A DNA stretch of 64,000 nt, from contig NZ_CP019388.1 in the NCBI RefSeq assembly GCF_001971725.1, positions 186,001-250,000 of the forward strand, read 5' to 3'. A program made the position numbers and the translations under genes. The notes under the pieces are model-generated. The model was not told the DNA's origin and ran no database searches. It worked only from the letters and a program-made list of their open reading frames with translations. This stretch comes from Winogradskyella sp. J14-2. Its GTDB lineage: Bacteria; Bacteroidota; Bacteroidia; Flavobacteriales; Flavobacteriaceae. Below are positions 44,827-54,972 of the stretch, in pieces; the first letter of the stretch is position 1; each line of letters begins with the position of its first letter.

Positions 44827-46128
44827 ATGAGCAAACTTAAAAAAGGAAGTAAAAAACTTCTTAATGCCTGGGCATTTTATGATTGGGCAAATTCGGTTTA
44901 TACCCTTACCATTGCATCATCTATTTTCCCGATTTTTTATTCGGCATTATTTCTTTCAGAGATAAAAAAAATTACTGCCTTTGGATATGATTTTAAAAGT
45001 ACTGCGCTTATAACGTTTGTTACAGCATTTACATTTTTGGTGGTTGCTTTTTTATCACCAATTTTATCTGGTATCGCAGATTATATAGGTAACAAGAAGA
45101 ATTTTATGAAATTCTTCTGTTATGTAGGTTCTATAGGCTGTATAGGTTTATATTGGTTTAGTTTAGATAGAATTCACCTAAGTCTTCTCTTTTATTTTAT
45201 GGGATTAATTGGGTATTGGGGAAGTTTAGTCTTTTACAACTCTTATTTGCCAGATATTGCGTACGAAGAGCAACAAGATAGCATAAGTGCAAAAGGGTTT
45301 AGTTTAGGATATATCGGCAGTGTTTTGTTGTTGGTAATTAATTTAGCTATGGTAATGAGTCAAGAAGATGGTGCAGACAAAGTGCAAATGATGCGCTATT
45401 CATTTATTACCGTTGGTATATGGTGGGCAGGCTTTAGCCAATATACATTTTATGTGTTGCCAAAAGGTGTGTCATCAGGACACAAGGTAACTAAGGATGT
45501 TATATTTAATGGTTTTAAAGAATTAAAAGGAGTTTGGCGAGAACTCAAAGAAAACCTACGACTTAAGCGCTACTTATATGCGTTTTTTGTATTTAGTATG
45601 GCCGTACAAACTATTATGTTAGTCGCGGTATATTTTGGTGAAGAAGAAATTGCATGGGGAAGTGATGAAGCAAAAACAACAGGACTCATAGTGAGTATAT
45701 TAGTTATTCAACTTGTTGCAATTATAGGCGCTGTGTTAACCTCGAGAGCTTCATCAAAATTTGGAAATATACCTACTTTAATAGCTGTTAATTTTATTTG
45801 GATGTGTTTGTGCTTCTATGCCTATTTTATGAAAACACCAATACAGTTTTACATCGCAGCATCTTTGGTCGGTTTGGTTATGGGAGGTGTACAATCTTTA
45901 GCGAGATCTACATACTCAAAATTTTTACCAGAGACAGAAGATACAACATCGTATTTTAGTTTTTATGACGTTGCAGAAAAAATTGGTATTGTAATAGGCA
46001 TGCTTATTTATGGGTTTATAGACCAAGTCACAGGCAGCATGCGTAACTCTATTTTGTTTCTTTTCATTTTCTTTTTAATAGGAATTATTTTATTATTTAG
46101 AGTGCCAAAAAGACAGATTCAAAATTAA
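44827..46128 (+). CDS. MFS transporter, UMF1-like family
   Basis: A 433-residue integral membrane protein with about 12 hydrophobic segments. The N-terminus KLLNAWAFYDWANSVYTLTIASSIFPIFYS is the hallmark of UMF1/Atg22-like transporters of Bacteroidota. SPILSGIADYIGNKKNFMKFF is the conserved loop between helices 2 and 3, and GVQSLARSTYSKFLPETEDTTSYFSFYDVAEKIG the later one. Related yeast Atg22 exports amino acids from the vacuole; the bacterial substrate is unknown. Confidence 0.9.
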   Translation: MSKLKKGSKKLLNAWAFYDWANSVYTLTIASSIFPIFYSALFLSEIKKITAFGYDFKSTALITFVTAFTFLVVAFLSPILSGIADYIGNKKNFMKFFCYVGSIGCIGLYWFSLDRIHLSLLFYFMGLIGYWGSLVFYNSYLPDIAYEEQQDSISAKGFSLGYIGSVLLLVINLAMVMSQEDGADKVQMMRYSFITVGIWWAGFSQYTFYVLPKGVSSGHKVTKDVIFNGFKELKGVWRELKENLRLKRYLYAFFVFSMAVQTIMLVAVYFGEEEIAWGSDEAKTTGLIVSILVIQLVAIIGAVLTSRASSKFGNIPTLIAVNFIWMCLCFYAYFMKTPIQFYIAASLVGLVMGGVQSLARSTYSKFLPETEDTTSYFSFYDVAEKIGIVIGMLIYGFIDQVTGSMRNSILFLFIFFLIGIILLFRVPKRQIQN

Positions 46129-46147
46129 TTCTTAACTTTAGCCAGCT

Positions 46148-47053
46148 ATGGTTAAGAAAATATTTATGTTAGGAGCATTTGCTATGCTCTTTATGGCAGT
46201 AAACTGTGATAATGAGCCTTATGAAGGTGAAATTATCGTTGAAGACACCTCTTGTATAGAAGCTATTGAAACTACAGAAATAGCTGCTCAGAATTTCTTA
46301 AATGGAACACAAGAAGATTTTAGTGACCTGTGCCTTATTTATAAAGAAGCTTTATTAGATCAGATTGAAGCTTGTGGAGATGAAGACGGTAGCTTACAAT
46401 TACTTGCAGATGACTTGGGTACTTGTACAGAAGAAATCGATGTTTGCGAAGAAGCAATTGAAGCTTCTGAGTTGGCTCGTATTATATATGAAAGTGCTGC
46501 AGACGAAACCGCTGAAGTTCTTTGCAATGCTTACAAAGACGCACTTTTTTATCAAATAGAAGTTTGTGGAGATGATGGTACCTTACTGGCTGTTATAGAA
46601 GATCTCGGTAATTGTGAAATAGAAATGGTAGATGTTGTAGGTACTTGGAAACTAGTATCTTGGAATACCGATGAACTGAGAGACCTTAATAATGATGGCA
46701 TAGTAACAAACAACTACCTTGATGATATAGATTGTTATGATAATGAGACCATAGAATTTAATCCTGACGGCACAGGAACTATGTTTTTGAGATCTACAGC
46801 AGAGTTTACATTTACACCAACCGCAGACGGTGAAGACTATTTTACAGAATGCACCAGCATTATGGAGGATAAAACTTTTACATGGACTGAAACTATTAAC
46901 AGTGTAACCATGTTATATACAGATGGTACCAGTCTAAGTCTCTTTAAGAATGGGAATCTTTATACCGCAATTAATGATGCATTTTATGCTCAGAGTACAG
47001 TAGACAATTCTGTAATTACAGAACGCATAACCTTTGTTTATAATAAGCTTTAG
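46148..47053 (+). CDS. Lipoprotein with duplicated Cys module and lipocalin-like domain
   Basis: The 301-residue protein starts with a signal peptide and lipobox (MLFMAVNCDNEP). Residues about 30-155 hold two copies of a module: CIEAIETTE...DLCLIYKEALLDQIEACGDEDGSLQLL and CEEAIEASE...VLCNAYKDALFYQIEVCGDDGTLLAVI. Each ends in a DLGxC-like segment, so cysteine spacing is conserved in both. A C-terminal part (VVGTWKLVSWNTDEL ... CYDNETIEFNPDGTGTMFLR) looks like the lipocalin-like domain of flavobacterial lipoproteins. The role is unknown. Confidence 0.78.
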   Translation: MVKKIFMLGAFAMLFMAVNCDNEPYEGEIIVEDTSCIEAIETTEIAAQNFLNGTQEDFSDLCLIYKEALLDQIEACGDEDGSLQLLADDLGTCTEEIDVCEEAIEASELARIIYESAADETAEVLCNAYKDALFYQIEVCGDDGTLLAVIEDLGNCEIEMVDVVGTWKLVSWNTDELRDLNNDGIVTNNYLDDIDCYDNETIEFNPDGTGTMFLRSTAEFTFTPTADGEDYFTECTSIMEDKTFTWTETINSVTMLYTDGTSLSLFKNGNLYTAINDAFYAQSTVDNSVITERITFVYNKL

Positions 47054-47131
47054 GTTTTTTTACTATAACTTGGCATTTAATATAAATACTTCATAAATAT
47101 TCTTATATTGCCAGTAACTAAACACTCAATA

Positions 47132-47683
47132 ATGAAAAAGCTATTAATACTTTCAATCCTATCTTTAACTGTATTTTCATCATGTAGTAGTAAAGTAGAC
47201 CTTGCTATTGATAATCCAACAGATGCCTCTGTAGAAATCGTAGTAGATACTTTACGAGTTTTGGTTCCGCCAAAAGACGTTGTTTGGGTAGAAATGGGAC
47301 CAGGAGAACACCAGTTAACCTTAGAGAATGATAGTATTATAAAATATAATTTTACCGAATCTGTATACATGATTAACCCTTCGTTATCTGAGTACTTAGT
47401 AGCAGACGAATATTATGGACCACCAGCTTTTCAAAATTCTTATTCATCTACATTACCAAGTAAAGAAGTTACGTTTTTGGGCATGACGATTGAAGGAAAT
47501 TACGATGTCTTTGCTGATGTTATTAATAAAGTGACTTGGGATTACGGTCCACGAGAAACGTTACCAGAAATGGTAGAGGTAGATGCCGATGAATCTTATA
47601 CAACGCTTGTTAAAGTTTATGATTCTTATGAATTTATAAACATGATGCAAAATGCATATGACTCTTATTCTGAAGAAGAATAA
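47132..47683 (+). CDS. Hypothetical lipoprotein upstream of speD
   Basis: The start at 47132 (MKKLLILSILSLTVFSSCSS) gives a standard lipoprotein signal peptide; the open frame extends 8 codons further upstream from a TTG but this adds nothing. The rest of the 183-residue protein is acidic and beta-rich (LAIDNPTDASVEIVVDTLRVLVPPKDVVWVEMGPG), with a hydrophilic C-terminus rich in Tyr, Ser and Glu. I do not recognise the family. It ends 12 bases before speD and is probably in the same transcript, so it may belong to the polyamine cassette. Confidence 0.65.
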   Translation: MKKLLILSILSLTVFSSCSSKVDLAIDNPTDASVEIVVDTLRVLVPPKDVVWVEMGPGEHQLTLENDSIIKYNFTESVYMINPSLSEYLVADEYYGPPAFQNSYSSTLPSKEVTFLGMTIEGNYDVFADVINKVTWDYGPRETLPEMVEVDADESYTTLVKVYDSYEFINMMQNAYDSYSEEE

Positions 47684-47695
47684 ACCACACTAAGT

Positions 47696-48070
47696 TTGAA
47701 AACTTCTCTCGGTACTCATATCACTTGGGATGTGTATAACTGTAATGCAGATACACTATCGTTTATACCTACGGTAAAAACGGTATTAAATGCTATAGTT
47801 GAAGAATTACAGCTTACCAAGGTTAATGAATCCTACAAACAGTTTGAGCCTATTGGTGTTACTGGTTTTATTCTTTTAGAAGAAAGCCATGTAAGTATTC
47901 ATTCCTGGCCAGAGCATCAGTTTGCAGCAGTAGATATTTTTTCTTGTAGACCTTTTAATGCTAAAAAGATTCAGCAATTATTAATGAAGTCTTTTAGTTC
48001 GGATAAAGTTGTTATAAAACAGATTGTAAGGGGAGAGGGTATCTCTATTATTTCACCAGATCTTATATAA
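47696..48070 (+). CDS. speD: S-adenosylmethionine decarboxylase proenzyme
   Basis: SpeD makes decarboxylated AdoMet, the aminopropyl donor for spermidine synthesis. The 124-residue small bacterial/archaeal type has GTHITWDVYNCNAD at the start and LLEESHVSIHSWPEH, where Ser64 is the self-cleavage and pyruvoyl site. AAVDIFSC with a conserved Cys follows, and the VIKQIVRGE end is typical. The best start is TTG at 47696, giving MKTSLGTHITW; no ATG is suited. Its last 8 bases overlap the convergent ATP-grasp gene. Confidence 0.94.
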   Translation: MKTSLGTHITWDVYNCNADTLSFIPTVKTVLNAIVEELQLTKVNESYKQFEPIGVTGFILLEESHVSIHSWPEHQFAAVDIFSCRPFNAKKIQQLLMKSFSSDKVVIKQIVRGEGISIISPDLI

Positions 48071-49244
48071 TAAAGTGAGACATAAACTCACAATCATCAG
48101 TTATAATCTTAGATTCTTGTGTTCTTAAGTTTATGGCAGACGCTCTCGATGTATAGAACATTCCTATTTGATAAAAGTAATCTTCTTCATCCTTGTTTAA
48201 TGGATAAAACTTTTGAAACACCATATACTGATGCCCAAAATCACCTTTAGATCTAGCTTCAGAATTACCCATAGCTTCAATAGAAATATTTTCACCCAGT
48301 CGACCATAAACTGGCTTTTGTACATAATTGTATAAGCTTGGTTCTTTATTTAAATACGTTTCAGCCAAAATGTTATTTGGAAAGTTTTGTGTGATATAGG
48401 CCAAAAACTTTTTATTCTGCCAAATAGCCGTGTATGGTGGATTTAAAACTACAACTTTATCGTTTAAGATTAAATCTGAAAGGATGTGTGCCAATTCAGG
48501 TTCATCAATAAACATCCAATCCCAGGGAATCATTTTAAAAAGCACATCTACATCTTCATATTCATCACCAATTTGATGAAACACACCTTCATCAGAAAAA
48601 ATAACATGTTCTAAGTCCGAATAAAACGGTTTATAGCCTGCTTCGTAAGCTATATCTATAATGCAGTTAACGTTTTCTTTGTCTTCAATATACCCAAATG
48701 AAGTACCAAGAAATATAGGGTTGTCTTTACCAAAATAAGATTTTAGGTTAGACAAAGCATCCTTTATATCAAACTTTAAAGTATTAAAACTTTGCGGATT
48801 GCCTTTTAGTTGTTCTAATTGAAGAGGTTGCCACAATAACGTTTCAGGTAAGGTGCTGCATGTGTCTGCATTAAACTCAATAATGCGACCATAATCAGAT
48901 TTTAAACCTCCATTAATATCAAAACGACCATAGAGAAAAGGATGTTTATTTTTGTTCTTCCAGCTATGTTCAATACATTTTTGAAACGATAACGGAATGC
49001 CAAGCTCACCTAATTTATGTTCGGCTATAATTTTGTCTGTAGCGCGTTGAAATACATAAAACGCTTCGTCAGAAATACGACGTAGTTGCTCTACCTCAGA
49101 ACGGTAAATACCCAGTAATTCTTCAGAAAAATAATCTTCTTCTAAATACCAATGTAAGCGATGTGGAACGTGTTTCTTTTTAAGACGTTTTATCTCTTTA
49201 AAACGACTATCCTCCAAACGATCTAAACGACTTTCCGCTGCCAT
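48063..49244 (-). CDS. Glutathionylspermidine synthase-like ATP-grasp ligase
   Basis: This is a YgiC/YjfC-type ATP-grasp amidoligase (GSP_synth family). Visible motifs include YGRFDINGGLKSDYGRIIEFNADTCSTLPET (the EYNADTPTSLLE-like loop), LFKMIPWDWMFIDEP, VVVLNPPYTAIWQNKKFLAY and VQKPVYGRLGENISI (the KPLxGREGxN-like ATP loop). The E. coli glutathionylspermidine synthase links spermidine to the Gly carboxylate of glutathione; this protein lacks the amidase half. The start is uncertain: the frame runs from 49271, overlapping the upstream lipoprotein gene by 65 bases; I prefer ATG 49244, with a 38-base overlap. It is directly downstream of a Gly-Gly-ended lipoprotein. Confidence 0.9.
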   Translation of the reverse strand: MAAESRLDRLEDSRFKEIKRLKKKHVPHRLHWYLEEDYFSEELLGIYRSEVEQLRRISDEAFYVFQRATDKIIAEHKLGELGIPLSFQKCIEHSWKNKNKHPFLYGRFDINGGLKSDYGRIIEFNADTCSTLPETLLWQPLQLEQLKGNPQSFNTLKFDIKDALSNLKSYFGKDNPIFLGTSFGYIEDKENVNCIIDIAYEAGYKPFYSDLEHVIFSDEGVFHQIGDEYEDVDVLFKMIPWDWMFIDEPELAHILSDLILNDKVVVLNPPYTAIWQNKKFLAYITQNFPNNILAETYLNKEPSLYNYVQKPVYGRLGENISIEAMGNSEARSKGDFGHQYMVFQKFYPLNKDEEDYFYQIGMFYTSRASAINLRTQESKIITDDCEFMSHFII

Positions 49245-49767
49245 ATCCTCTAGATGATTTTCCTGGTACACTTACTCTTCGAGATGTTGCAGAGCTTCTT
49301 AAATCGTTTTTTAATCCTGTAGATTTATTATAAGCAGAAGCATTTTTGTAGTTACTTTGGTTTGGTGTAACATTACGTAAACTTCTGTTAAAAAAAGAAG
49401 CTGCTAACGAGTAGTATAGGATGCTTCTTAAACCCGAATGACGACTGTAAGATGACTCGTCATTTTTCATTTTTCTTAAAGATAATGTATCTGTTGTTCC
49501 TTCTAATGTGTGTACAATAGCAATAGATTTATCTTTATCGTCAATTAAACGCTCATCGATGATTTTATAATCATTTCCTGGTTCTACTTCTTCAACCTCA
49601 GTGATAACACCTTGAGTAGTTTCGTAAACCGTTTCTTGCTGTGCATCTTTAATGCGTGGACTAGGATCGTTATCGCCACAACTTTGAAATGTTAATGCAG
49701 CCGCTACAGCAGCCATTAACGTTATTTTTTTAGTTAAAGCAAGACCAGTTATAATTTTTTTATTCAT
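49207..49767 (-). CDS. Small lipoprotein with C-terminal Gly-Gly (YgiB-like role)
   Basis: From ATG 49767 the 186-residue protein has a signal peptide with lipobox (AALTFQSCGDND, Cys about residue 30), a soluble part with a VYETTQGVITEVEEVEPGNDY strand pair, a hydrophobic SGLRSILYYSLAASFFNRS stretch, and a flexible Ser/Arg/Gly-rich tail ending ...RGYGSGKSFRSFGG. I do not find a family with certainty. E. coli YgiB, encoded beside the YgiC ligase, also has a Ser/Arg/Gly tail ending in Met-Gly-Gly by my recollection. Its stop overlaps the ATP-grasp start, so the two are co-translated. An upstream in-frame start at 49800 is less likely. Confidence 0.72.
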   Translation of the reverse strand: MNKKIITGLALTKKITLMAAVAAALTFQSCGDNDPSPRIKDAQQETVYETTQGVITEVEEVEPGNDYKIIDERLIDDKDKSIAIVHTLEGTTDTLSLRKMKNDESSYSRHSGLRSILYYSLAASFFNRSLRNVTPNQSNYKNASAYNKSTGLKNDLRSSATSRRVSVPGKSSRGYGSGKSFRSFGG

Positions 49768-49806
49768 CTTTGACAGGTTAATTTCCTCAAACATAATCAA
49801 TTTTTA

Positions 49807-51333
49807 ATGAATAAAAAAGCACTAATTCCATTTGCTGTATTTATTGCAGGTTTATGTTCAATCATCTACGAATTGCTAATAAGCACAACTGCAACTTATT
49901 TTTTAGGAGATGGTGTAAGACAGTTTTCCATAATTATTGGTGTGTATCTGTTTTCTATGGGAATAGGCGCCTTTTTATCCAAATTTTTTAAGGACAAACC
50001 ACTTACATTTTTTATCAATGTAGAGTATCTGCTCGGTTTTATTGGTGGTGTTTCTGTGCCACTGCTTTATATGCTGTTTGTGTATGTGTCGCCAATGATA
50101 TTACAAATAAGTTGTTTGGCTATCATATTTGTAATTGGCTTACTTACAGGTATGGAAGTGCCTTTATTGACTTTTGCCTTAGAGGAGAGCAATATTAAAA
50201 ATAACTTGTCTAACGTGTTGTCGTTAGATTATATAGGTGGACTTATTGCGACCTTGATTTTTCCATTTATCATACTTCCATTTGTTGGCTTGTACTATTC
50301 GTCGCTAATCTTTGGAATTGTAAATATTGTCTTAGGTATTCTTTTGAATTACACTTTGCTCAAAGACAAAAAACGAAACAGCATTTTTGGCTTTTTGGCC
50401 GTTATTGCTTTAGTTGTTTTAGTGTTGCTTGGCGGTAAACTTTTAAAGGTTTGGGATCAGAAAATATACAAGCGTCCTATTGTATTGAATGAGCAAACGC
50501 CGTATCAAAAAATTGTAATGACCAAAACACAAGGAGATGTTCGTTTGTATCTTAATAGAGTGATACAGTTTTCATCTTCAGATGAGCATCGTTACCATGA
50601 GTCTTTGGTACATATTCCTTTAGCAATGCATTACAATCCAAAGCGTGTTTTAATTCTTGGAGGTGGCGAAAATTTAGCAAGTAGAGAAGTGCTAAAACAT
50701 AGCTCTATTCAGCGTGTTGATGTTGTAGATATTGATAGTACCATGTTTTATCTGGCTAAAGAGAACAAATATCTAAAGGATATTAACGCTGATGCTGCCA
50801 AAAATGAAAAAGTAAATCTTATACCAGAAGATGCGTTTACGTACCTTTTTAATAATACTGAAAAGTACGACGTAATTATTGCAGATTTGCCAGACCCAAC
50901 CAACCAGGCATTGGCAAGATTGTACAGCAAGCAGTTTTTTTTAATGGCGAAGCGAAATCTTAAAAAGGACGGTGTTTTTGTAACACAATCTGGTGAAATT
51001 TATTTCTCAAACAAAGTCTTTAGTTGTATCAACAATACCTTGGCATCAGTTTTTGAAGACGTACAACCTTATCACACGTATATACCATCGTTTGGAGATT
51101 GGGGATTTATTATTGCAAGGCATGATGGTAACAACAGTAAAGTGGATACTAAAGCTTTGCCAGAAGATTTAAAATATCTCAACCAAAACCAAATAGAGCA
51201 AGCCTTTATTTTCCCTAAGGATATTACCATTGCCGACACTAAACAGAATACTTTAGACAATCCAATTATCCTTAACTATTTCTTAGACGAATGGGAAAAA
51301 TGGAAAGTAGATTTTGAAGCTGGAACGAAGTAA
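49807..51333 (+). CDS. Membrane-embedded spermidine synthase-like protein
   Basis: A 508-residue protein with about seven membrane helices (residues about 5-205) followed by a cytoplasmic aminopropyltransferase domain. The domain contains YQKIVMTKTQGDVRLYLNRVIQFSSSDEHRYHESLVHIP, the nucleotide-binding VLILGGGENLASREVLKH, VDVVDIDSTMF, LIPEDAFTYL and the substrate site VIIADLPDPTNQALARLYSKQFF. Such membrane SpeE proteins are proposed to add aminopropyl groups from decarboxylated AdoMet, here supplied by SpeD. The Gly-rich loop is GGGEN instead of GGGDG. It is divergent from the lipoprotein gene, with a short gap. Confidence 0.88.
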   Translation: MNKKALIPFAVFIAGLCSIIYELLISTTATYFLGDGVRQFSIIIGVYLFSMGIGAFLSKFFKDKPLTFFINVEYLLGFIGGVSVPLLYMLFVYVSPMILQISCLAIIFVIGLLTGMEVPLLTFALEESNIKNNLSNVLSLDYIGGLIATLIFPFIILPFVGLYYSSLIFGIVNIVLGILLNYTLLKDKKRNSIFGFLAVIALVVLVLLGGKLLKVWDQKIYKRPIVLNEQTPYQKIVMTKTQGDVRLYLNRVIQFSSSDEHRYHESLVHIPLAMHYNPKRVLILGGGENLASREVLKHSSIQRVDVVDIDSTMFYLAKENKYLKDINADAAKNEKVNLIPEDAFTYLFNNTEKYDVIIADLPDPTNQALARLYSKQFFLMAKRNLKKDGVFVTQSGEIYFSNKVFSCINNTLASVFEDVQPYHTYIPSFGDWGFIIARHDGNNSKVDTKALPEDLKYLNQNQIEQAFIFPKDITIADTKQNTLDNPIILNYFLDEWEKWKVDFEAGTK

Positions 51334-51345
51334 TTTATTTAGATT

Positions 51346-51834
51346 ATGAAAAGCCTAATATCTATATTCTTATTGATTTTAATTAGTAGCCTTTTTAATA
51401 ATGAAAGAATTTCAGAGTATGAAAAAGCATTAAATGTTATTCTTGATTCAGAAGAGTACACGTCTATAACTAAAAATAAAAAACAATTTCATGTGTCTAG
51501 TGAGGTTGTGGTTTTTGAGAAAATGGGAAAGTTCTTTATAGAAGAGTTACAGAATAATAGTATATACTTATCTGCTGAGAACATAATACTTGGCGAAAAG
51601 AAAGAGAATTTTAACAATGAAGGTTTGGAAAAATTGAATTGTAAAAAGAGAGGTAAAGTACAAGCTTATTTTTCAGAAATCAAAAATGATGTGTTTTTTG
51701 CAGAAATTGTCGAGTCAAAGAAAAAGAGCTCTTATGAAAAAAAGATTGGGTTTGGTACAACTTCCATATTTATGTTTAAAATTTCAAATAATGAACTGGA
51801 GTTAATTTCCGTCAAAAAACTAATATATGGATGA
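51346..51834 (+). CDS. Hypothetical exported protein
   Basis: A 162-residue protein with an N-terminal hydrophobic segment (SLISIFLLILISSLF) that is a signal peptide or anchor, followed by Lys- and Glu-rich sequence with no motif I recognise. It lies 12 bases after the spermidine-synthase-like gene and ends before a terminator, so it is probably in the same transcript. Its composition is strongly A/T-biased, as expected of a small flavobacterial exported protein. Confidence 0.6.
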   Translation: MKSLISIFLLILISSLFNNERISEYEKALNVILDSEEYTSITKNKKQFHVSSEVVVFEKMGKFFIEELQNNSIYLSAENIILGEKKENFNNEGLEKLNCKKRGKVQAYFSEIKNDVFFAEIVESKKKSSYEKKIGFGTTSIFMFKISNNELELISVKKLIYG

Positions 51835-51842
51835 TGGAAACT

Positions 51843-51873
51843 AAAAAAGGACAAGCCAACACTTGTCCTTTCT
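51843..51873 (+). terminator. Terminator at the end of the polyamine cassette
   Basis: AAAGGACAAG-CCAACA-CTTGTCCTTT is a 10-bp perfect stem flanked by A and T runs. Confidence 0.88.
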
Positions 51874-51898
51874 CCTTTTTTGGTTGATTGATTGAGCA

Positions 51899-52624
51899 CT
51901 AGTTGCTAACGCTACCAGAGCCTGTCACTTTAGTGTCTTTGTTGGTTGGATTACCTGAATATTTTACATCACCAGAGCCTGTAATTCTTACTTTAAGCTC
52001 ACCATTACAAACCACATTAGATCCACCAGAACCAGTGATTTTTGCAGTGACATTAGTGCTGTCTAGGTCGCTACCATCAAAATCGCCAGAGCCTGTTACT
52101 TTTGTCGTCAAATCTTTTGTTGAGCCACTTAATTCTATATCACCAGATCCCGAAATACTACTTTCAACAGAGTTAGAGCTAATCTTTAAACTGATGTCGC
52201 CAGAGCCTGCTAAGGACACATCAAAATCGTTAGCTTTAATTGTGCCTGAATTTTCAATATCACCTGAGCCAGCCAAGGAGACAGAATTGATAGATTCGTA
52301 AGGTACGGTAACTACAATAGTTTTTGTAGGTTTCAGATTAATACCATTTTCAACTTTTACAACAAGTTTACTACCTTTTACCTCAGTAATGATGTATTGC
52401 ATTAAATTGGCATCACCTTCAATAGTAATAGTTCCCTCATTACCTTGGACTAATTTAAAATCCATTGGTCCTGCAGCCTCAAGACCATCATAATCACCTG
52501 TAGATCTGTTTTCTGTAGTAATGTTTCCGTTGCCTTTTTCTTTTTTCCATTTTCCCCATTGTGCACAAGATGTTGTAACACTAAAAAGGAATGCGACTAA
52601 TGTAATTGATTTTAATAATTTCAT
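51899..52624 (-). CDS. Head-GIN domain (DUF2807) secreted protein
   Basis: The 241-residue protein has a signal peptide ending at SCAQ (lipobox-like LFSVTTSCAQ) and a beta-helix-type body of the DUF2807 family. The second half holds about seven repeats with the GSGD core (VSLAGSGDIENSG, VSLAGSGDISLKI, SSISGSGDIELSG, TKVTGSGDFDGSD and others). DUF2807 occurs in putative adhesins and surface proteins. It is on the same strand as the sigma/anti-sigma unit upstream but separated by 154 bases containing a hairpin repeat. Confidence 0.88.
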   Translation of the reverse strand: MKLLKSITLVAFLFSVTTSCAQWGKWKKEKGNGNITTENRSTGDYDGLEAAGPMDFKLVQGNEGTITIEGDANLMQYIITEVKGSKLVVKVENGINLKPTKTIVVTVPYESINSVSLAGSGDIENSGTIKANDFDVSLAGSGDISLKISSNSVESSISGSGDIELSGSTKDLTTKVTGSGDFDGSDLDSTNVTAKITGSGGSNVVCNGELKVRITGSGDVKYSGNPTNKDTKVTGSGSVSN

Positions 52625-52695
52625 GTTTTTGAATTGTTTGGTTACTGTTCGTTTTTTGATTTTTATATCAGTTCGAGCGATTTCGAGAATCGGAA

Positions 52696-52733
52696 TTGTA
52701 TCGAGAACACTTTTATTTGTCTTCTCGATACAA
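52696..52733. repeat. Perfect inverted repeat in the DUF2807 upstream gap
   Basis: TTGTATCGAGAA (52696-52707) and TTCTCGATACAA (52722-52733) are exact inverted copies separated by 14 bases. Nearby TTCGAGCGATTTCGAGAATC is related sequence, so this is likely a dispersed intergenic element. Confidence 0.75.
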
Positions 52734-52778
52734 ATTCATTAAATAAAATCCTCTGAATTCATTCGAAGTGACGATAAA

Positions 52779-53867
52779 TTATTGTTGTTTAAAGCTAACG
52801 CTTCCGTATTCCGATTTTATTTTCACATAGTTGCCAGACCCTTTTGTGCCATGGTAACCATTGTACTTTTTCTCGAAAGAATCGACTTCTTTATTTGTAA
52901 AATTAAAGGCATCAGAATCTCTTAATGAAGCATATTCTAAATCGATATTAAAATCAAAGCTGTAATTACTATCATAACCAATAGTAATGCCCATAAACTC
53001 AGAATCGATTTCTACATTATTTGCTTTTGAGGCGATGCGATCTATCTTTAAAGATCCATAATCGGCTTTTAAGTTAATACTTTTATATATGTTAACTATA
53101 CGTAAGGTAAGATAATCAGCGTTTCCTTCAACATTATTTATGTTATCTATTCTTAACGAACCGTAGTCGCAGTTGAATTCTACATCTTCCGAATTTTCGA
53201 TTATAGAATTTGTATACCCAGTGTTTAAGTAAAGGGATTTTGTCTTGGCTATGGTAAAGTCGCTATAATCTGCATATAATTTACCACTTTTAATAAATTC
53301 AAAATAACAACCTTTACTGTAATCAAAATTAACGTAGTTGTCATCTGCCATAAGTTCTTTGGTGGTTATTTTCCCATAGCTACAGTGAATTTTGGCTTTG
53401 CCTTTTAGTCTATCTAAATTTATGGTGCCATAATTATTATCTAAATCTACGTTATTGGTTATTGGCATTTTTACACGGTAGTGCACTTCGATCTTTAATT
53501 TTTTGTTGTTATTCCAACTCCACCAATTTTTGTCTTTATTTTCAAAATTTGTTTTGGCCGTTACTAAATCTTTAGTGTTATTAAAACTAACTGAAATTTC
53601 ATTAAGTCGTTCTTCAACTTTGTCGGCATTATTGCCAGTCACTTCAATAGTAATATCAAACTCAATGCGATTCTGGTCCCAAGTTACAATGTCTAAGTTG
53701 CCATAGCTATTATCTATTTTTAATGTAGCATCAGCAGATACATCAAATGACTTTTTTATGTTGCGTTCTTTCGTCGTTTTTGCAATTTCAGCGTTTGTGT
53801 TTGCCGACGCTAAAAATGGCATTAGCAATAGAAGCATTGCTATTCTAAAATGTATTTTTTGGTTCAT
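52779..53867 (-). CDS. Secreted DUF4097-like beta-repeat protein
   Basis: From ATG 53867 the 362-residue protein has a signal peptide (AMLLLLMPFLASANT) and a beta-helix-like body. Its repeating strands resemble those of DUF4097 adhesin-like proteins: DNSYGNLDIVTWDQNRIEFD, NYGTINLDRLKG, DYGSLRIDNINN and ADYGSLKIDRI occur at about 20-residue spacing. Its start overlaps the anti-sigma gene by 23 bases. An extra-cytoplasmic stress or envelope role is likely but not shown. Confidence 0.78.
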   Translation of the reverse strand: MNQKIHFRIAMLLLLMPFLASANTNAEIAKTTKERNIKKSFDVSADATLKIDNSYGNLDIVTWDQNRIEFDITIEVTGNNADKVEERLNEISVSFNNTKDLVTAKTNFENKDKNWWSWNNNKKLKIEVHYRVKMPITNNVDLDNNYGTINLDRLKGKAKIHCSYGKITTKELMADDNYVNFDYSKGCYFEFIKSGKLYADYSDFTIAKTKSLYLNTGYTNSIIENSEDVEFNCDYGSLRIDNINNVEGNADYLTLRIVNIYKSINLKADYGSLKIDRIASKANNVEIDSEFMGITIGYDSNYSFDFNIDLEYASLRDSDAFNFTNKEVDSFEKKYNGYHGTKGSGNYVKIKSEYGSVSFKQQ

Positions 53868-54408
53868 CACTGTTGATTTTTAATTCTCTAATTGTTTCAA
53901 TTTGTTCTAAAACTGTATTCAAAATATCTATCCTGTTCTGAAAGTTGCTAATCATAGCGTAGATAACGCGCTGATCCTTATTACTTTCAGTTAAATCTGT
54001 TTTTAGTTTTTGATAGTCTTTTTCTAACAGTTCAATTCGGTTCAGCGCATCTGTTATAACTTGTTCGGTTAAAGGCGAGCGCTCATTGTTAAGCTTTTTT
54101 AATTCTGCATAAATTGTTGCTGTAAAGAAATCTTGCGTTTCGGACATTTCTGGTGATACGCTTGCCAAATCCATAACTTCTGGCTGCGCAGTTGACGTTG
54201 TAAATACAGCTAAGCAAATCACCAAAGAAGCTGCTATGGCTAAAAATGGTTTCCAATTAAAACCTGAAGACTTCATCTCTTTTGTAGAAGCTACTGTATT
54301 TGTATTGAGCTTTTCTAAAAAGCGATCTTGATGACCAGCATTTGGTTCATTGATATCAAACTCACCTTTGAGGTTATCAAATAATTCATCAATGTTATCT
54401 TTCTTCAT
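53845..54408 (-). CDS. Anti-sigma factor-like membrane protein
   Basis: The 187-residue protein has one membrane segment (FLAIAASLVICLAVFTTS, about residues 52-70), a cytoplasmic N-terminal part and a long periplasmic helical region rich in Leu, Glu and Asn (DALNRIELLEKDYQKLKTDLTESN). There is no ZAS-type HxxxCxxC motif, so it is not a classical zinc anti-sigma factor. Its position 12 bases after the ECF sigma gene supports an anti-sigma role, which I infer from context only. Confidence 0.75.
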   Translation of the reverse strand: MKKDNIDELFDNLKGEFDINEPNAGHQDRFLEKLNTNTVASTKEMKSSGFNWKPFLAIAASLVICLAVFTTSTAQPEVMDLASVSPEMSETQDFFTATIYAELKKLNNERSPLTEQVITDALNRIELLEKDYQKLKTDLTESNKDQRVIYAMISNFQNRIDILNTVLEQIETIRELKINSDEPKNTF

Positions 54409-54420
54409 AATTCTTCGTTT

Positions 54421-54972
54421 TTAAGCAGTTGGCACTAACTTTTTACGTAAACTTTCTTTAGCTCTGGATATCATGGTTCTGCAATTGGCGTAGGATATGT
54501 CCATAATCTCACAGATTTCTTCGTAATCATAACCTTCGATAAGATGCAGGGTTAGCCCTAAATTATAATTGGGTTTTAGTGTTTTCATAACACTAATAAT
54601 TTGCTTCACCTTAGCATTATTTTGATTATAACTTTCAATGCGGTTATCATCTTCAACTTTGTACATAATTGGCTCTAGAGGCACTTCGTTTTGTTTTATG
54701 GTTTTGTTGTAATGTGCTATACTATTATTCACTACAATACGTTTTAACCATGCGCCAAATAGTTTGGCGTCCTCTAATGTTTCAAGTTTTGTAAAAGCCG
54801 TTAAAAATGACTCTTGCATAATGTCTTCAGCCTTAAAAGAATCTTTTACAATTCTCAATGCTGTGTTATACATGGCTTTGTGGTATCTATTGTAAACTTC
54901 TAACTGCGCACGTTGGTTACAAGATTTACAAAGCACTAATAACTGTTCGATATTTTGATTGGTTGATGTCAA
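54421..54972 (-). CDS. ECF-type RNA polymerase sigma factor
   Basis: The 183-residue protein has sigma region 2 (AMYNTALRIVKDSFKAEDIMQESFLTAFTKLETL) and region 4 (YNLGLTLHLIEGYDYEEICEIMDISYANCRTMISRAKESLRKKL), the helix-turn-helix for the -35 element. It initiates transcription at a small set of promoters, probably its own operon. The anti-sigma-like and adhesin-like genes follow. No canonical promoter was recognised in the 231-base gap shared with lon. Confidence 0.95.
   Translation of the reverse strand: MTSTNQNIEQLLVLCKSCNQRAQLEVYNRYHKAMYNTALRIVKDSFKAEDIMQESFLTAFTKLETLEDAKLFGAWLKRIVVNNSIAHYNKTIKQNEVPLEPIMYKVEDDNRIESYNQNNAKVKQIISVMKTLKPNYNLGLTLHLIEGYDYEEICEIMDISYANCRTMISRAKESLRKKLVPTA

Follow-up and report, generated by a model that had tools for sequence, protein, structure and literature searches.

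A conserved gene cassette of Winogradskyella as a candidate system for building a polyamine on the Gly-Gly terminus of a lipoprotein

A stretch of 64,000 nucleotides of the Winogradskyella sp. J14-2 genome (contig NZ_CP019388.1, positions 186,001 to 250,000; hereafter the window, in whose numbering positions are given) contains five genes between 47132 and 51333, which encode a small exported lipoprotein (LP1), the S-adenosylmethionine (AdoMet) decarboxylase SpeD, an ATP-grasp ligase, a second lipoprotein that ends in Gly-Gly and a membrane aminopropyltransferase. The gene content of this cassette, the co-occurrence of its genes, the conserved terminus of the lipoprotein and the conserved catalytic residues of the enzymes were directly observed. 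They suggest that a polyamine is built on the C-terminus of the lipoprotein by the ligase, SpeD and the membrane enzyme, a reading to which we assign a probability of roughly 0.6. Its first half, attachment of a polyamine to the lipoprotein tail by the ligase, is likely. Its second half, in which the substrate of the membrane enzyme is the tail-borne amine and not a free amine, is close to an even call and falls just on the doubtful side. An earlier reading of the same DNA from its letters alone (the sequence-only reading) had described speD, a ligase without its amidase half, a Gly-Gly lipoprotein and a membrane-embedded spermidine-synthase-like enzyme side by side, and all of them are present as described. 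The features are as follows.

47132 to 47683, plus strand: LP1, small exported lipoprotein; accompanies speD, lipobox ..FSSC, without a Pfam family
47696 to 48070, plus strand: SpeD, class 1b AdoMet decarboxylase; TTG start, PF02675 (E = 3.5e-31), TIGR03330 (105 bits)
48063 to 49244, minus strand: putative polyamine ligase of the YgiC/YjfC type, ATP-grasp, with a GSP_synth domain; PF03738 (E = 1.7e-67), no amidase half
49207 to 49767, minus strand: tail lipoprotein, the proposed acceptor; lipobox ...LTFQSC, C-terminus SSRGYGSGKSFRSFGG (SFRSFGG)
49210 to 49257, minus strand: conserved C-terminal tail of this lipoprotein, free of Asp and Glu
49768 to 49806, no strand: intergenic stretch of 39 bp that separates the lipoprotein-ligase pair from the divergent gene of the membrane enzyme
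49807 to 51333, plus strand: membrane aminopropyltransferase (membrane SpdSyn); PF01564 (E = 2.6e-44), PRK03612 (551 bits)
51346 to 51834, plus strand: exported open reading frame (ORF) named in the sequence-only reading, not counted as a cassette member

Pfam families were assigned by scanning ten window proteins, those encoded from 44827 to 53870. The 3' end of the lipoprotein gene overlaps the start of the ligase gene by 38 nt if the ligase begins at the ATG at 49244, which was used for the coordinates; a GTG at 49271 is an alternative. The host genome is a single 3.35-Mb contig with one PF03738 and one PF02675 match, both in the cassette.

The conservation of the cassette was analyzed by tblastn in 37 fetched regions. 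The order speD-ligase-lipoprotein-SpdSyn is kept in 14/14 loci of the same genus as far as their contigs reach, in one other genus of Flavobacteriaceae at 54-70% identity and, with speD inverted, in two genomes from a second family at 31-44% identity. As the gene order is kept across the genus, a second genus and a second family, the cassette is more than a chance arrangement. The sequence-only reading had staked itself beforehand on the four families being neighbours in related genomes, and this is what was found in the genus, the family and a second family. Among 60 Winogradskyella genomes, PF03738 was detected in 15, the window's own included, while PF02675 (14/60) and strong PF01564 matches of more than 140 bits (13/60) were all located in genomes of these 15; weaker PF01564 matches are present in most of the 60. 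The three misses coincide with contig ends within or next to the ligase (speD in G204, the membrane enzyme in G192 and G193). Contig ends excepted, a genome of the genus has either all three of ligase, speD and membrane enzyme or none of them. A genus-wide spermidine pathway is weakened as an explanation by the absence of both ligase and speD from 45/60 of these genomes.

Beyond the genus, PF03738 scored over its cut-off in the window's own genome and in one other (G096) among 149 family genomes that each represent one genus, with two further weak matches, and it matched in 32/395 genomes of the phylum. A scan of 84,980 species genomes yielded at least 551 confirmed ligase loci, of which the best 80 of 551 were kept and searched for cassette genes with profiles built from four seeds. 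Among these best 80 of 551, the ligase was accompanied by speD and/or SpdSyn in Aquimarina, Maribacter, Cellulophaga, Chryseobacterium, Saprospiraceae and Chitinophagales, and the cassette ranges over Flavobacteriales (Winogradskyella), Saprospiraceae and Chitinophagales including one metagenome-assembled genome (MAG). Loci L063 and L064 showed weak PF03738 matches only and none of the window's genes. A Chitinophagales MAG has its ligase gene divided between two reading frames (L106, 2140-3435). Of the two exported proteins that had been named as flanking the set, LP1 adjoins speD in 10/21 representative cassette loci and belongs to the cassette; the ORF at 51346-51834 was matched by tblastn in none of the 37 regions (E<=1e-3) and was rejected as a member. 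The overall interpretation of the sequence-only reading is thus upheld in part, for a conserved cassette, a YgiC/YjfC-type ligase and a dedicated Gly-Gly lipoprotein, and loses its downstream exported gene.

The ORF directly upstream of each ligase was picked without regard to its C-terminus, and it ends in Gly-Gly in 33/33 cassette loci with speD or SpdSyn, 14 of which come from Winogradskyella; a 34th locus (L061) is cut by its contig and starts inside the ligase. Among control ORFs from the loci examined, 7/1291 end in this way. Asp or Glu occurs within the last 20 residues of 0/33 cassette tails versus 1159/1291 control ORFs, and the alpha-carboxylate of the last Gly is therefore the only carboxylate of the tail. 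An alignment of 23 lipoprotein orthologues, most but not all of them from loci with SpdSyn, contains 14 invariant columns, of which six lie in the last 13 residues and eight in the preceding 175. The invariant tail columns are GxG, two Ser and the final GG (23/23 orthologues). The lipobox Cys is not invariant, as two Portibacter-genus genomes encode a hydrophobic N-terminus instead. At ligase-only loci, with no speD or SpdSyn nearby, the upstream ORF ends in GG in 30/58. Five repeat loci were left out of the tail counts (L087=L057, L088=L049, L089=L056, L098=L081 and L159=L073), and 16 loci of L048-L166 contributed no tail, L063, L064 and L084 for lack of a ligase match and L061 plus 12 others for lack of a candidate ORF. 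At four loci with a cassette-type tail (L100, L104, L123, L125), SpdSyn is not nearby but lies at another place in the same genome, in the case of L125 as a fragment; for a fifth such locus, L111, a search of the genome did not find the membrane enzyme.

The Pfam family DUF1190 (PF06693) was matched neither by the window lipoprotein nor by any of the 23 orthologues. In an alignment of tail proteins from ligase-only loci that includes E. coli YgiB and YjfM, PF06693 matches 4/22 (L158 at 19.1 bits, below the cut-off of 22). Comparison of the window lipoprotein family with these tail proteins by hhalign gave 99.9% and an E-value of 4.3e-35. The latter, however, are mostly proteins of Cytophagales, Saprospiraceae and Campylobacterota, and the apparent bridge to DUF1190 itself is thin.

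Positions 12-371 of the 371 in PF03738 align to residues 41-401 of the 402-residue ligase. No other family was matched at E<=1, and the amidase half was not found. A profile of nine ligases with the window's first gave YgiC (7uk8/7uka, 198 bits) and YjfC (7uk6/7uk7, 188 bits) as best matches in the PDB, ahead of GspSA (121 bits). The residues aligned with Gss R316, D318, E330, N332, K498, K533, R538 and R598, which we take to have catalytic roles, are identical in the window ligase, YgiC, YjfC and 28/28 relatives. The acidic pair aligned with Gss E391/E392 is kept as E196 and D197 in the window (E in 26/28 relatives, D in 27/28), and there are some differences around the Gss active site, such as window E395 at the position of Gss D610. 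The equivalog model of the bifunctional glutathionylspermidine synthetase/amidase gave the window ligase 79 bits versus a cut-off of 882, and by this score and the nearest PDB matches a glutathionylspermidine synthase acting on glutathione was rejected. A blastn search with the window ligase gene against E. coli returned no match. Together these comparisons support the assignment of the window ligase to the YgiC/YjfC type, closer to these two proteins than to GspSA.

The membrane enzyme scores 551 bits with NCBIfam PRK03612 (NF002956) versus a cut-off of 472, and 174 bits with the canonical SpeE model TIGR00417, below its cut-off of 249.6. The N-terminal tetramerisation domain PF17284 had no match in it at E<=1; a soluble fusion protein at L101 has one. 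Q254, DE.RYHE, GGGE, D310 and DLPDP are invariant in 20/20 membrane enzymes, and these aminopropyltransferase motifs presumably serve in donor binding and catalysis. An AlphaFold2 model (mean predicted local distance difference test score, pLDDT, 89; predicted template modelling score, pTM, 0.69) places seven long N-terminal helices, which are read as transmembrane helices, before the SpdSyn domain, and thermospermine synthase (6bq2) is the best PDB match by sequence. In 20 sequences the N-terminus and loops 2-3 and 6-7 are positively charged on average; together with the seven helices this leans, not decisively, towards a SpdSyn domain outside the inner membrane. Bacterial homologues of membrane-aminopropyltransferase fusions are described in PMC12803844, citing Li et al. 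2019, as uninvolved in spermidine and spermine biosynthesis, and homologues of the fusions are said there to occur throughout Fungi.

Comparison with known systems separates what is familiar from what is new. In the E. coli RefSeq annotation, ygiC and yjfC are both named 'peptide--spermidine ligase', and each adjoins a gene for a DUF1190 protein; the name apparently goes back to Pederick et al. A link between YgiC/YjfC ligases and such genes, put forward in the sequence-only reading, is borne out by these names and by the GG ends of both neighbouring DUF1190 proteins. The YgiB-YgiC and YjfM-YjfC pairs resemble the window in ligase domain, catalytic residues and a tail gene directly upstream, and all three tails are Gly/Ser/Arg tails ending in GG (SFRSFGG in the window, SSRSMGG in YgiB, ARGHWGG in YjfM, ..RGGYGRSSSARGHWGG). 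In contrast, the 8.5- and 11-kb stretches around the E. coli pairs contain neither speD nor a membrane aminopropyltransferase, whereas the window has both, and the window lipoprotein lacks the Pfam DUF1190 match of YgiB and YjfM. E. coli Gss/GspSA shares the GSP_synth domain and the catalytic residues, but the window ligase lacks its amidase half. The protein-borne aminopropyl chains proposed for the window are reminiscent of diatom silaffins and long-chain polyamines. Fusions of a membrane protein with spermidine synthase that occur together with AdoMet decarboxylase (reported by Li, Kurihara, Kim, Liang and Michael 2019) are like the window in having a PRK03612-type enzyme with speD nearby, but the window enzyme shares its cassette with a YgiC-type ligase and a Gly-Gly lipoprotein. 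Polyamine operons with PspA, CesT-Tir and DUF350 (Ravi et al. 2024, PMC11237479) have the enzyme families and a lipoprotein in common with the window. The accessible part of that paper joins these families in operons with PspA, DUF350, DUF4178 and lipoproteins, raises aminopropylation of other substrates and contains no mention of the tail ends of the operon proteins; unlike these operons, the window locus has no PspA, DUF350 or DUF4178 match among its ten scanned proteins. A ligase with a tail lipoprotein is hence a kind already known from E. coli and the conjugation idea is largely precedented, while the addition of a dedicated SpeD and membrane enzyme makes the window cassette a new form of it.

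From these observations we infer the chemical steps, the amine, their order and the side of the membrane, and the proposed route would run as follows. The cassette would build a polyamine at the C-terminus of the membrane-anchored lipoprotein. The ligase would activate the terminal Gly-Gly alpha-carboxylate with ATP and join a di- or polyamine to it, SpeD would make decarboxylated AdoMet, and the membrane aminopropyltransferase would add an aminopropyl group from this donor to the amine now at the tail end. In clusters that contain the membrane enzyme and no ligase, the acceptor of this enzyme would be an encoded C-terminal Lys, modified at its side-chain amine.

Such ligase-free clusters were traced by a protein search at E<=1e-40, which found the membrane enzyme in 29/395 genomes of the phylum. 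Three of these are ligase cassettes; the other 26 loci and six second clusters in genomes with a ligase elsewhere make up 32 ligase-free Bacteroidota loci. A Gly/Ser/Arg-rich, Lys-ended ORF on the strand of the enzyme was detected in 28/32 by a composition filter that did not set the last residue but favoured Lys, barred Asp and Glu from the last 14 positions and covered the enzyme's strand only. The filter passed 44 ORFs in the 32 loci, 30 of them Lys-ended, two of which (L234, L238) are probably spurious; of the filtered ORFs with a hydrophobic stretch or lipobox, 27/31 are Lys-ended. Inspection of the remaining four loci by eye revealed proteins ending in SHK or YHK, for a total of 32/32. 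Seven plasmid loci, out of twelve plasmid records with a near-full-length match and added later in a search with Lys ends in mind, each have a Lys-ended ORF (7/7; Ensifer, Burkholderia stagnalis, two Novosphingobium, Tritonibacter, Gemmatirosa and Alteromonas). A nearby Lys-ended protein is thus present in 39/39 ligase-free loci, by a pattern that was written after the tails had been inspected. A positional test blind to the last residue was also employed: of the ORFs located between DUF4178 and DUF350, the longest is Lys-ended in 22/24 loci, with 15/39 loci skipped (13 without a one-strand DUF4178-DUF350 pair, one without a gap and one without an ORF).

The Lys-ended tail proteins form more than one family. 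In 21 small Lys-ended proteins with 27% mean column identity only the final His-Lys columns are invariant, while six lipoproteins and one DUF4178-fused protein end in Gly-Lys; as the aligned proteins were picked as tail proteins, some of them for their Lys end, the invariance of Lys is partly by construction. The Gly-Lys proteins and the Gly-Gly family gave no alignment beyond the signal peptide. A single Lys terminus means little because 64/407 background ORFs in the 32 ligase-free loci also end in Lys, and the weight of the Lys rule lies in its recurrence in unrelated proteins. Lys-ended proteins near a ligase-free enzyme point to action on the tail itself. Tails end in GG where a ligase is in the cassette and in Lys where it is absent, and both patterns would be explained most simply if the membrane enzyme requires an amine at the tail end. 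The side chain of Lys is an aminobutyl group and resembles putrescine, and aminopropyl-lysine would for this reason resemble spermidine. We tentatively propose, as something that may well prove wrong, that the membrane enzyme, which occurs in many bacteria and is not known to have an acceptor, is a protein aminopropyltransferase for the C-terminal amine of dedicated membrane-anchored tail proteins, using the encoded Lys without a ligase and the ligated polyamine with one.

The ligase-free clusters L183-L188, L219-L227 and L230-L234 contain genes for DUF4178, DUF350, an FAD amine-oxidase-like protein and SpeD around the membrane enzyme and the Lys-ended protein, recognised by our own profiles and, for just some of the genes, by Pfam as well. 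The FAD amine-oxidase-like product could act on the modified tail. In two loci DUF4178 is encoded in frame ahead of the Lys end (L222, 8695-10089; L240, 5260-5964), a fusion that suggests a role of DUF4178 in acting on the tail protein or together with it.

The alternative that survives best, and the version given in the sequence-only reading, is a dedicated supply: spermidine or a related free amine would come from SpeD and the membrane enzyme, perhaps made at the membrane, and the ligase would attach it ready-made to the Gly-Gly tail. We regard this as possible yet rather doubtful. It draws on the polyamine supply of the hosts. In the window's own genome, a SpeA-like (PF02784) and a deoxyhypusine-synthase-like gene (PF01916) flank a gene read as agmatinase, a set that would provide putrescine and probably homospermidine, and nspC, used alone as a stand-in for the carboxyspermidine route, had no match there; the membrane enzyme is then the only aminopropyl route seen in this genome. 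The search for nspC covered 38 genomes, and several cassette hosts without it are MAGs. Also in its favour, genomes of ligase-only loci mostly carry nspC (over cut-off in 15/18, with the membrane enzyme elsewhere in six of the 18), and the catalytic residues of the membrane enzyme are those of ordinary aminopropyltransferases. Against free-amine supply, nspC is over cut-off in 7/17 cassette genomes with SpdSyn in the locus (10/17 are below), and the membrane enzyme is kept in all seven, with speD in the cassette locus of six. A Saprospiraceae MAG with strong nspC even encodes a fusion of the cassette speD with a soluble spermidine synthase, with GGGDGG and DAPDP motifs, beside the membrane enzyme (L101, 9184-10557). 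Some hosts therefore keep the membrane enzyme although they can probably make spermidine by another route. Of three genomes with a cassette-type tail and no SpdSyn in the locus, nspC is over cut-off in one, just under it in another and far below it in the third. The reported place of bacterial membrane-aminopropyltransferase fusions outside spermidine and spermine biosynthesis (PMC12803844) also speaks against free-amine supply, which moreover leaves the Lys-ended partners in ligase-free clusters unexplained.

It is unlikely that the ligase joins an amino acid, a peptide or host homospermidine to the tail, with SpeD and the membrane enzyme serving separately in membrane physiology. The residue differences near the Gss active site (E395 for D610) and the deoxyhypusine/homospermidine-synthase-type gene of the host would fit such a ligand, but the acidic pair E196/D197 is retained, and the fact that ligase, speD and membrane enzyme strictly co-occur across the genus argues for one pathway. 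Least probable is a tail end that acts as a localisation, assembly or proteolysis signal while the ligase and aminopropyltransferase act on other molecules, since low-complexity Gly/Ser/Arg tails could indeed bind lipids or other proteins but the residue at the tail end goes with the set of enzymes (GG in 33/33 cassette loci, Lys in 22/24 ligase-free loci by position), which is unexpected of a generic signal.

Several observations weigh against the building of a polyamine on the tail. If the SpdSyn domain lies outside the membrane, the decarboxylated AdoMet donor would need export, and if it lies inside, the tail must be modified before export. The upstream ORF of ligase-only loci does not end in GG in 28/58, two of these ending in Lys (one probably L114, whose tail is apparently frame-shifted); the others end in GS (10), in HA, HG, HS, RS or SG (2 each) or in one of eight further ways found once each. 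In some cases the ORF taken may be a gene other than that of the lipoprotein, and 17/75 such loci gave no ORF within limits. A GG end universal to all ligase loci was considered, and these 28 loci speak against it. Besides the background of Lys ends given above, the Lys rule was spotted in and counted on largely the same loci, which are related by descent. The positional test fails in 2/24 loci (L187, L246), where a shorter or annotated ORF is Lys-ended; some Lys-ended tails (L232, L233) are not Gly/Ser/Arg-rich, and the Lys-ended gene of Burkholderia lies on the opposite strand to the membrane enzyme. Strong nspC is missing from the 10/17 cassette genomes and the window's own, and a plain spermidine supply is possible there.

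If building on the tail is correct, the cassette ties two orphan lines, the peptide-spermidine ligases and the pair of AdoMet decarboxylase and membrane aminopropyltransferase, to one tail, and provides a substrate for a membrane enzyme reported outside spermidine and spermine synthesis. The same kind of charged terminus would be reached by two unrelated routes, of which the window cassette is a hybrid, and aminopropyl-lysine would be a protein-borne analogue of spermidine. C-terminal polyamine tagging would then be a little-noticed modification of the bacterial envelope with at least two routes. The Gly-Gly-or-Lys rule is a testable prediction for mass spectrometry. Neither this rule nor a protein-borne acceptor for the membrane enzyme was met in a literature search that lay mostly outside subscription papers, and both may be in print.

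The stretch adjoining the cassette (51899-54972) encodes a DUF2807 protein, two proteins without a Pfam match over cut-off and an extracytoplasmic function (ECF)-type sigma factor. DUF2807 is a 'Toastrack' family in PMC11237479. The DUF2807/sigma-factor block near the cassette is also found in G096 of the same family, in Maribacter and, largely, in Cellulophaga, and it hints at envelope-stress control.

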